DNA from: a virus
Reading direction: 5' to 3' (one strand)
Virus record (IMG/VR): IMGVR_UViG_3300010354_000100
Span: 1-58,941 of that record
Length of the DNA stretch: 58,941 bases
Shown one piece after another: positions 10,859 to 24,150 of the stretch. Position numbers and translations under genes: made by a program. The stretch's first letter is position 1, and each line of letters opens with the position of its first letter. Under the pieces are notes generated by a model. The model did not search any database and was not told the origin of the DNA. It saw nothing but the letters and a program-made list of their open reading frames with translations.

Positions 10859-11086
10859 ATGAAAACCACCAACCCACAACAGAACACGGTTCGCAGCCGC
10901 ATGACCCAGTTGCGTATTGACGCAGGTCTCTCGCAAGAGGCACTCGCCAAAGCAGCAGGAATCGACCGCAAGACCGTGAATCGTATTGAGAACGGGCACT
11001 TCTCCCCGAACCTCGATACCTTCTTCCGTTTGTGCGTCGCGCTTGATGTGCGCCCAGCAGACCTCATGAAGGGAATCGGCAAGTGA
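10859..11086 (+). CDS. Cro/CI-type helix-turn-helix regulator
   Basis: 75 aa, essentially one HTH_3 domain: MTQLRIDAGLSQEALAKAAG then IDRKTVNRIENG and the PNLDTFFRLCVALDV helix typical of Cro/CI/Xre proteins. No dimerisation domain. A plausible regulator of the promoter array. Confidence 0.85.
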   Translation: MKTTNPQQNTVRSRMTQLRIDAGLSQEALAKAAGIDRKTVNRIENGHFSPNLDTFFRLCVALDVRPADLMKGIGK

Positions 11087-15012: not shown

Positions 15013-15041
15013 TTGCGAAAGCGACAAAGATGTGATACACT
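15013..15041 (+). promoter_or_regulatory. second tandem promoter, drives RNA candidate
   Basis: TTGCGA, 17 bp, TACACT. Confidence 0.8.
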
Positions 15042-15047
15042 TAGAGT

Positions 15048-15275
15048 ATAAGGCAATACGAATACAGTAAGCAATTACTGACAACACATAGGAATACATC
15101 ACTTACACAAGTTGTATCACCAGCAATACTTACCGACGACCGTCCTAGGCGGTCGGCTCGTAGTCCCTTCTGCGTCGAGCCTTCCCTGTCAGTCCCTGTA
15201 ATCCGACGCAGGCGGAGTTGCTATCCGCCGAGTGTCAGTATGTGCGCGACGACGGTCGCTGTCGGTAGTTGCTTA
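15048..15275 (+). ncRNA. candidate structured non-coding RNA 1
   Basis: No ORF. A long-range helix pairs AGCAA and TACCGAC (15122-15126, 15131-15137) with GTCGGTA and TTGCT (15261-15267, 15269-15273). It encloses GACCG/CGGTC (loop TCCTAGG), GGCTCG/CGAGCC, GGCGGA/TCCGCC and GCGAC/GTCGC. A 5' hairpin CAGTAA-GCAA-TTACTG has a GNRA loop. CTGCGTC (15170) could instead pair with GACGCAG (15205), excluding the GGCTCG helix. Has its own promoters. Confidence 0.65.
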
Positions 15276-15297
15276 GTGTATCCGTATGTGATACACT
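15269..15297 (+). promoter_or_regulatory. promoter for 15319 gene
   Basis: TTGCTT, 17 bp, TACACT; the -35 box is the 3' strand of the closing helix of RNA candidate 1. Confidence 0.75.
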
Positions 15298-15318
15298 GTA
15301 AATAGAAAGGTAAACACA

Positions 15319-22190: not shown

Positions 22191-22523
22191 ATGAAAATCA
22201 CACTAGAACATCTCACTTCGGGCGTAGCCCGAAAAGTGGAGTACTGGTACGGCGAATGCGACCCAGCCGAAATTGAGGATGGCGTACTTGACGTAACCTA
22301 CGGCACTTTGGAAGTTACCTTTACTTCGGGACGCTCTTATGAGTACGCCGAAGTCACGGTAGGAACCTTTGCCGAACTAATCAAGGCAGTGAGTTTCGGC
22401 AAGTTTCTCAATCAGGAAATCAAGCCGTACCACGAGGTTCGTGAGACCACCCCAGCCGAATTGCTCGCCGAAATCAAGGCAAAGCAGGCTGAGGCAAAGG
22501 CTCTCAAAGCCTCGCTCGCCTAG
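22191..22523 (+). CDS. KTSC-like hypothetical protein
   Basis: 110 aa, GGAGG upstream. GTLEVTFTSGRSYEYAEV and a helix ending SFGKFLNQEIKP parallel the KTSC-like gene at 19293. A Lys/Ala/Glu coiled helix forms the C terminus (LLAEIKAKQAEAKALKASLA). Confidence 0.55.
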   Translation: MKITLEHLTSGVARKVEYWYGECDPAEIEDGVLDVTYGTLEVTFTSGRSYEYAEVTVGTFAELIKAVSFGKFLNQEIKPYHEVRETTPAELLAEIKAKQAEAKALKASLA

Positions 22524-22559: not shown

Positions 22560-22590
22560 ACCACCGGGCAGGGGCAGTTTGTGCGTTCTG

Positions 22591-22735
22591 GTATGTCTGT
22601 CTAACAGCCCACTAGACGCAATAGGAAGCGATTAGAGAGGCTCTACAAAAAAGATAAGACTAGGGCAGAATAACTACCTTGTCTCACAGCCTGAGCAATC
22701 TGGAAGCGTCTGGCAAGGGGCGAACATACGTTCGG
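22591..22735 (+). ncRNA. twin non-coding element A
   Basis: About 145 bases closely related to element B at 23614. Begins GTATGTCTGTCTAACA like the spacer of other promoters, contains the shared core AGACTAGGGCAGAATAA and TGTCTCACA, and ends in the hairpin CGAAC-ATAC-GTTCG. Stop codons in every frame; AGACGC can pair with GCGTCT over the full length. Confidence 0.6.
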
Positions 22736-22791
22736 TCGGCGGGCGAAGAGCACCGGGCAGCGGGCTTGTGAAAAGTTTCTTTTGTTTGGAG

Positions 22792-22820
22792 TTGCGAAAC
22801 TGTCGCAAGTGTGATACACT
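22792..22820 (+). promoter_or_regulatory. promoter for 22871 gene
   Basis: TTGCGA, 17 bp, TACACT; leader hairpin GTGGGGC-AATC-GCCTCAC. Confidence 0.85.
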
Positions 22821-22870
22821 TTTATTAGTGGGGCAATCGCCTCACATAACACAACAAGGAGAAAAAAGTA

Positions 22871-23119
22871 ATGCGACACAAAGGAATGGTGGCAAGTGCC
22901 GAAGTGGTACTTAGCCCGACAATTGAGTACGGAGTCCGTACTGAGTGGGCAATAGCCCTCCACTTTCAGAGCCCGACTGGTGACAGTTCGGACTTTATGG
23001 TGCGAGAGTTGCCCTGCCTCTCACGAGAGCAGGCAGTCATTATTGCCGACAAGTGGAATAGCGAAGTATGCCCCGAACTGGTGGGCAGGTTCGCAGTATC
23101 CGACCTGTTGCCGAACTAA
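22871..23119 (+). CDS. hypothetical protein
   Basis: 82 aa, AAGGAG upstream. Two-strand plus helix pattern (TEWAIALHFQSP; SREQAVIIADKWNSE). Unassigned. Confidence 0.6.
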   Translation: MRHKGMVASAEVVLSPTIEYGVRTEWAIALHFQSPTGDSSDFMVRELPCLSREQAVIIADKWNSEVCPELVGRFAVSDLLPN

Positions 23120-23130
23120 CCAACCCAAAA

Positions 23131-23152
23131 GGGTGGGGCGAAAGCCCCACCC
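23131..23152 (+). terminator. hairpin terminator with GNRA loop
   Basis: GGGTGGGGC-GAAA-GCCCCACCC. Confidence 0.75.
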
Positions 23153-23221
23153 GACAGGGGGCGGCAGAGGCAGCGGGCGAATTCTGTAACACAAAAGTAA
23201 CAAAAAAAAGTGTGTTTCGGG

Positions 23222-23250
23222 TTGACAACCGTACACCCTTGTGATACACT
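23222..23250 (+). promoter_or_regulatory. promoter for 23297 gene
   Basis: TTGACA, 17 bp with GTACACCC, TACACT; leader hairpin AGTGGGG-AAAA-CCCCACT. Confidence 0.9.
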
Positions 23251-23296
23251 GTAATTAGTGGGGAAAACCCCACTACAACACAAAGGAGAAAACCAA

Positions 23297-23536
23297 ATGA
23301 ACGGAATAGTCGGAACAAGGGTGGCAATGCCAGCCAACCCAACAGCGTGGCTGAGGGACAACGCTCGCAAGGGCGCAATGCTCTACACCCGAGACGGCGT
23401 GACCGTGGCACTGGTGAACACCCAGACCACCTACGGAGACCCAGACAAGGGCACCCAGCAGCACCCCCTCTACGCCCCCCAGGGCGAGGGCAAGCGGGTC
23501 TACTCGGCTCGCCCAGTAATGCCAATGCTTGACTAA
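23297..23536 (+). CDS. AWLRDNAR-family small protein B
   Basis: 79 aa, AAGGAG upstream. TAWLRDNARKGAMLYTRDGV and a later PDKGTQQHPLYAP block match the 20356 gene closely. Role unknown. Confidence 0.65.
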   Translation: MNGIVGTRVAMPANPTAWLRDNARKGAMLYTRDGVTVALVNTQTTYGDPDKGTQQHPLYAPQGEGKRVYSARPVMPMLD

Positions 23537-23547
23537 GAACCCCCGAA

Positions 23548-23571
23548 GGGGAAGGGCGAAAGCCCTTCCCC
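23548..23571 (+). terminator. hairpin terminator
   Basis: GGGGAAGGGC pairs with GCCCTTCCCC, loop GAAA. Confidence 0.75.
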
Positions 23572-23613
23572 GAACGGCGGGCAGAGGCAGCCCCCGGGCG
23601 AGCGGGCGTTTCT

Positions 23614-23757
23614 GTATGTCTGTCTAACACCCGATTAGAAGCGTCAGGAAGCCCCAGGACGCGAGCAGAAAAAAAGTGGAGACTAGGGCAGAATAAATAG
23701 TCTGTCTCACAACCTGACGCACTAGGGCACGTCTGGCAGAGGGCGAACGTATGTTCG
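23614..23757 (+). ncRNA. twin non-coding element B
   Basis: Same order of conserved blocks as element A: TGTCTGTCTAACA, AGACTAGGGCAGAATAA, TGTCTCACA, CGTCTGGCA, and the end hairpin GCGAAC-GTAT-GTTCGC. GCGTCAGG pairs with CCTGACGC and AGACTA with TAGTCT. No ORF. Confidence 0.6.
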
Positions 23758-23807
23758 CTCGGAGGGCGAGGAAGGCAGCGGGCCGGCAAAAAAAGTTTCT
23801 CTCGGAG

Positions 23808-23836
23808 TTGACAAACCGCTTAGGCTGTGATACACT
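23808..23836 (+). promoter_or_regulatory. promoter of RNA candidate 2
   Basis: TTGACA, 17 bp, TACACT, a full-strength match with no coding sequence for about 390 bases downstream. Confidence 0.85.
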
Positions 23837-23842
23837 AATAAC

Positions 23843-24150
23843 ATAAGCAACAACGGCGAAAGCGGGTAGTCCGCTAGTAACCAGACAACTAGCAGCCCCC
23901 ACTCTCTGGGCAACAATCCCCGTGAGAAGATAAGTGGCGACCCAAGCGGTCGGGCAAACGGGTGCGACGTTGGCGGTAGGTGAAAGCCCTACGACATACA
24001 ACCCCGAAAGGGGTGAAACGCGCCAAGGCTTCGGCGTGCGAGACGCACGTTACGGCTACGAAGCAAGAGGGCACGGTGAGGCTTTACCTGACGGGCAACA
24101 ATCCCCTAGTAGGCAAAGATAGCCACCCGCAGCGGGTGAGAACCCCGCAA
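23843..24150 (+). ncRNA. candidate structured non-coding RNA 2
   Basis: About 300 nt, no plausible ORF. Helices seen: GCTAGT/ACTAGC (23873/23888), CCACT/AGTGG (23899/23933), TTGGCG/CGCCAA (23970/24021) enclosing GTAGG/CCTAC and ACCCC-GAAA-GGGGT, GCTTCG/CGAAGC (24028/24059) enclosing CGTGCG-AGA-CGCACG, and CACCCG-CAG-CGGGTG (24124). GGGCAACAATCCCC occurs twice (23908, 24093). Does not match tmRNA, RNase P or group I intron cores that I can recall. Confidence 0.65.

Follow-up and report, generated by a model that had tools for sequence, protein, structure and literature searches.

A duplicated, conserved non-coding element between gene cassettes of a tailed phage

The closest described counterparts of the locus reported here are the operator and stoperator sites of the Cluster A mycobacteriophages L5 and Bxb1 (PMC5712189, PMC6550527), the non-coding RNAs of Cluster A phages (PMC5712189) and the SOS boxes bound by LexA, among them the recA box of Mycobacterium tuberculosis with the same core, CGAACAGGTGTTCG, as found in relatives of our phage (PMC8607333). 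Here we describe two copies, A and B, of an element that is real, conserved, duplicated and non-coding, and compare them with these systems.

Elements A and B in an island of small genes

The window, by which we mean the whole stretch of DNA that was analysed, comes from a tailed phage; the virus record is 58,941 bases long and encodes a large terminase, a portal and a head protease as well as a ribonucleotide reductase and a single-strand binding protein. Its terminase is less than 60% identical to that of any deposited phage, and the best listed matches (~40–44%) belong to Gordonia and Brevibacterium phages and to the archaeal phages psiM2 and psiM100. Because of these terminase matches, the host is probably an actinobacterium; it is probably a freshwater one. 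BLAST searches with the element region and with a third copy, C, revealed no DNA similarity to deposited or annotated phages, and B had no match among the plasmids searched.

Tiny genes form an island from ~13.4 to 29 kb, and many of them are preceded by a promoter of their own, TTGCGAAA/TTGACAAA-N-TGTGATACACT. Two promoter classes occur there, TTGCGAAA...TGTGATACACT and TTGNNA-TGTCTAACA-N5-6-TATAAT; TGTGATACA, which represents the former, is present 24 times in the window, and a hairpin such as GTGGGGcaatcgCCTCAC opens many promoter leaders of the island. The part from 21 to 27.7 kb, through which the window continues, matches the region where the contigs of all six relatives (G001–G005, G007) end; assemblies break in this island, which is variable or rich in repeats. 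Elements A and B have the following features and neighbours:

22191–22523, plus strand: KTSC-domain gene left of A (Pfam PF13619, E 4.8e-12)
22586–22740, plus strand: element A, 74% identical to B (E 2e-24) and 83.6% to C in the related phage L084
22598–22606, plus strand: site 1 of A, TGTCTAACA, a motif of promoter spacers
22612–22713, plus strand: possible RNA basal stem in A, 22612–22619 (CTAGACGC) with 22706–22713 (GCGTCTGG)
22657–22667, plus strand: longest invariant block in A, AGACTAGGGCA, the same in A, B and C
22680–22688, plus strand: site 2 of A, TGTCTCACA, with TGT-N3-ACA kept; the aligned site of C is TGTCTAACA
22721–22734, no strand assigned: SOS-box-like perfect palindrome at the end of A, CGAACATACGTTCG
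22792–22820, plus strand: promoter of the gene right of A, TTGCGA-N17-TACACT, repeat family D1
23297–23536, plus strand: 79-aa gene of the AWLRDNARKGAM family left of B, without a Pfam match
23609–23763, plus strand: element B, 74% identical to A (E 2e-24) and 72% to C
23621–23629, plus strand: site 1 of B, TGTCTAACA, a motif of promoter spacers
23680–23690, plus strand: longest invariant block in B, AGACTAGGGCA, the same in A, B and C
23703–23711, plus strand: site 2 of B, TGTCTCACA, with TGT-N3-ACA kept
23744–23757, no strand assigned: SOS-box-like perfect palindrome at the end of B, CGAACGTATGTTCG
23808–23836, plus strand: promoter right of B, TTGACA-17-TACACT, leading into a non-coding stretch

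BLAST pairs 22586–22758 with 23610–23783 at 74.4% identity, and with an E value of 2e-24 the duplication is far beyond chance. The word AGACTAGGGCAGAATAA occurs twice in the window in comparison to 0.08 expected occurrences (at most three mismatches). The sequence-only reading had placed two related stretches here, and the common words it quoted are present; its extent (22591–22735 and 23614–23757) has the right location, while the conserved block is slightly wider, ~22586–22740 and ~23609–23763. Its further claims that no reading frame is conserved and that one non-coding element was duplicated also hold: A and B share no ORF, and both contain stops in the plus-strand frames. A coding function of the element was rejected in six frames. 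The element is always oriented along the direction of the genes on its right.

Further non-coding features are present in the window. A dispersed repeat of ~60 nt, CCAAGGGAACG..GC...AAATAAATCCGA......GGAACACCATATTTT, often followed by GGGGCAGGGGCA, has 10 plus-strand copies in the window (4490, 6493, 10700, 13474, 15567, 17869, 19029, 20127, 21953 and 27900) and 47 copies in the six related phages. Behind the strong promoter at 23808–23836 lie ~310 nt without ORF (23837–24150, plus strand) that are well folded (z −2.5) and a candidate for a large non-coding RNA; BLAST found no homolog in the relatives, and GGCAACAATCCC words are common to this stretch and a promoter-led non-coding stretch in G002. 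Another candidate phage RNA is the promoter-led non-coding stretch 15040–15300 (plus strand), which is 97% conserved in G004 and, in parts, 69–82% in three other relatives, and has complementary ends (15056–15083 with 15260–15287).

Copies in related phages

Five related contigs were found by means of the DUF932 gene and a sixth, L084, through the AWLRDNAR gene. L084 carries the full-length third copy C (L084:2583–2735), and diverged partial copies are present in G001, G002, G003 and G005; the G004 contig stops just short of the place of A. The partial copies of G002, G003 and G005 hold TGTCTAACAgCC.ACCAGACGCAATAGGAAGC and GACTAAGGGC, the counterpart of AGACTAGGGCA, and their partial units repeat every 133 nt, while the copy at the contig end of G001 consists only of CAGACGC...AGGAAGCCCC. 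A spaced core pattern retrieved C again from IMG/VR and no further full-length copy, and had no match in ~85,000 bacterial and archaeal genomes. An exact-word scan of IMG/VR with GACTAGGGCAGAATA gave 20 matches, all of them due to chance. No relatives emerged from a pattern scan with the KTSC protein.

A, B and C align gap-free across ~150 nt. The identity of A and C (83.6%) is higher than that of the AWLRDNAR gene with its promoter (76.8%) and of other neighbouring genes (72–77%), and the KTSC gene body gave no DNA alignment between the window and L084 at the threshold used. Since the element is more similar than its neighbouring genes, its sequence is under selection. By identity and place, C is the ortholog of A, and B is an older paralog, which is placed behind the AWLRDNAR gene like the copies in G002, G003 and G005. 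In L084 the KTSC gene beside C has the opposite orientation to that in the window; C is thus more than the 3′ end of that gene.

Putative sites for DNA-binding proteins

In the window TGTCTAACA occurs 7 times, always on the plus strand, whereas 0.29 occurrences are expected. In six phages we counted 40 sites on the gene strand and 0 on the other strand (G003, read only in part and with the same copy as G002, was counted apart). Promoter spacers hold 35 of the 40, 29 by a strict promoter test and 6 by eye, and the remaining five all belong to the element family, one each in A, B, C, G002 and G005. Every full copy has two sites 82 bp apart, one of which is TGTCTAACA; in C the first site is TGTATAACA and the second TGTCTAACA. 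TGT-N3-ACA is kept at both positions in A, B and C, variant sites included, and the spacing is fixed because the three copies align without gaps. The copies were rejected as promoters of the TGTCTAACA class, since they lack both a suitable −35 and a −10 that ends in T. A candidate regulator of these sites is encoded elsewhere in the window:

10859–11086, plus strand: ORF of a 75-aa HTH_3 protein (PF01381 above cut-off)

The HTH_3 protein is found in five of six records (PF01381 above cut-off in the window and four relatives), and we infer that it may bind TGTCTAACA-type sites. S24 repressor domains were not found in the six records.

Every full copy closes with CGAAC-RNNY-GTTCG. Exact matches to this palindrome occur five times in the window (14824, 22721, 23744, 25168 and 26445; 0.05 expected), each time within the small-gene island, and 2 to 7 times per record or piece read of the relatives, where the spacer is R..Y each time. 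In the relatives the palindromes are sometimes paired, 15 bp apart. Those of A and B lie ~50–57 bp upstream of the next −35 and neither overlap nor abut a promoter. The sequence-only reading had described the ends of A and B as related hairpins; the ends are related, and are better described as perfect palindromes. With invariant arms and a 4-nt spacer of the R..Y type in every case, they fit a protein site better than a hairpin. In G002 and G005 the palindrome contains CGAACAGGTGTTCG, the core of the M. tuberculosis recA box. By analogy, the host LexA or a similar protein could bind the palindrome, the SOS box of the host being assumed from those of other actinobacteria.

Competing explanations and likeness to known systems

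We tentatively favour a composite cis-acting DNA operator or road-block between gene cassettes; this is the best supported reading, with a structured RNA as a close rival. Preference is given to the DNA because independent support, namely the motifs, exists at the DNA level only. The fixed spacing of the sites, the conservation above the coding neighbours and the presence of an HTH_3 protein in five of six records also speak for it. Three observations argue against an operator: the palindromes of A and B do not sit on a promoter, neither motif accounts for the longest invariant block AGACTAGGGCA or for AGGAAGC, and in G002, G003 and G005 the second half is missing from the partial copies, which have no terminal palindrome there. 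That A and B are a duplicated structured RNA, either independent or processed, is somewhat doubtful but a serious possibility. In such an RNA a basal stem (GCCC/GGGC, CTAGACGC/GCGTCTGG and, in A, TAGG/CCTG) would close a domain whose AGAC/GTCT pairing exposes the invariant loop TAGGGCA; the linkers are A-rich. Complementarity between the conserved blocks follows a nested order (pairing in 90% of cells versus 25–38% with the partner slid), the central part of the consensus fold reaches z −2.4 (column-shuffled; best of ten related tests), ~150 nt are free of indels, and a non-coding stretch with its own promoter adjoins B. The sequence-only reading had likewise argued that the copies differ in ways that keep pairing. 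However, pairs changed on both sides number 0 in every helix tried, including both that it named, so its proposed check of homologs for compensatory changes yielded none, with the weak power of three full copies. In its pair TAG/CTA versus AGACTA/TAGTCT all three copies have the same 5′ AGACTAG, variation is confined to the 3′ side, and the TAG/CTA pairs are lost in C; GCGTCAGG/CCTGACGC pairs perfectly, but only in B. The stem CTAGACGC/GCGTCTGG is fully paired in A and C and mismatched at 2 of 8 positions in B, where 4 of 12 basal pairs are broken, and an uncompensated T/G difference separates the hairpins of the partial copies in G002 and G003, two nearly identical phages. The whole-element consensus fold has z −1.3, and the folding energy of A alone is ordinary (z −0.85) and that of B moderate (z −2.5, single sequence). 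Neither phage promoter type was found directly upstream of A, B or C, and the left neighbour of C is transcribed away from it, so that C is not the 3′ UTR of that neighbour. Rfam 15 gave no match at gathering and permissive thresholds. A covariance model recovers A, B, C and the G002/G003 copies (36.9 bits), its weaker matches resting mainly on the terminal palindrome. Duplication and selection are supported, and the element may be a small RNA as first suggested: there is no compensatory change and no promoter directly upstream, although the non-coding stretch from 23837 has one, and the fold is ordinary in A, moderate in B and at best z −2.4 for the consensus. The accompanying idea of an inhibitor or decoy RNA fits the repeated binding-site-like motifs as far as the decoy is concerned, which would then be DNA. 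A hairpin GTCTA...TAGAC around site 1 was rejected by inspection, as a pair is broken, uncompensated, in B, C, G002 and G005. A minus-strand terminator (hairpin, then T-run) is visible by eye, and the terminator scan reported none in A or B.

It is distinctly unlikely that A and B are cassette-boundary repeats for recombination, which mark junctions of gene duplication, inversion or exchange. In L084, the source of C, the KTSC cassette is inverted and both breakpoints have CGAAC....GTTCG palindromes; the partial units of the relatives are spaced at 133 nt, and the contigs of all six relatives end in the element region. In contrast, the conservation of A and C above the genes is more than a recombination scar needs, and no tyrosine integrase or resolvase domain was found in the six records searched. 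The inverted stretch (L084:2036–2566) comprises the KTSC gene, its promoter and a 3′ hairpin. Remnants of a decayed duplicated gene, the outcome that the sequence-only reading itself had set against its proposal, are highly improbable. A and B each lie directly behind a gene, and GACTAAGGGC recurs at position 1379 of G005, where one AWLRDNAR gene ends, but apart from the copies of the element itself no ORF in the phages searched matches any of the frames, and conservation above real neighbouring genes is the opposite of decay.

We return to the favoured cis-acting DNA element, of which A and B would be two conserved copies between cassettes of the small-gene island. A phage regulator, possibly the 75-aa HTH_3 protein, would act on the TGTCTAACA-type sites, and the host LexA or a similar protein on the terminal palindrome. 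By acting as an operator, a road-block or a titration site, the occupied element could uncouple or regulate the transcription of neighbouring cassettes. Unannotated non-coding DNA is abundant in phages of uncultured freshwater bacteria; the piece described here is kept more strictly than the adjoining genes and concentrates regulator-like motifs. If the SOS-box reading is true, it links the phage to the DNA-damage response of its host; if the RNA reading is true, it represents a new RNA family. We speculate, while considering it unlikely, that a new family of phage elements couples a TGTCTAACA-type operator with a host SOS box, and perhaps with a structured transcript, by which the phage would read or titrate the DNA-damage regulator of the host during infection.

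Compared with the stoperators of L5 and Bxb1, the TGTCTAACA sites are likewise short, recur along the phage genome with a single orientation relative to transcription, and lie partly in promoters and partly in intergenic regions away from them. They differ in sequence (TGTCTAACA in comparison to GGTGGc/aTGTCAAG in L5/Bxb1), in having only a candidate repressor, the HTH_3 protein, and in their distribution: most sites of L5 lie away from promoters, whereas here 35 of 40 are in promoter spacers and the non-promoter sites are built into a conserved element of 150 nt. Like the Cluster A non-coding RNAs (PMC5712189), A and B are non-coding stretches of a probable actinophage without a conserved ORF; those RNAs were seen in RNA-seq, while A and B are known from their sequence and have no promoter directly upstream. 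The palindromes share the identical core CGAAC-N4-GTTCG with the LexA/SOS boxes of actinobacteria and Bacillus (PMC8607333, PMC4234289), from which they differ in lying 50–57 bp upstream of the next −35 and in being flanked by G/C instead of T/A.
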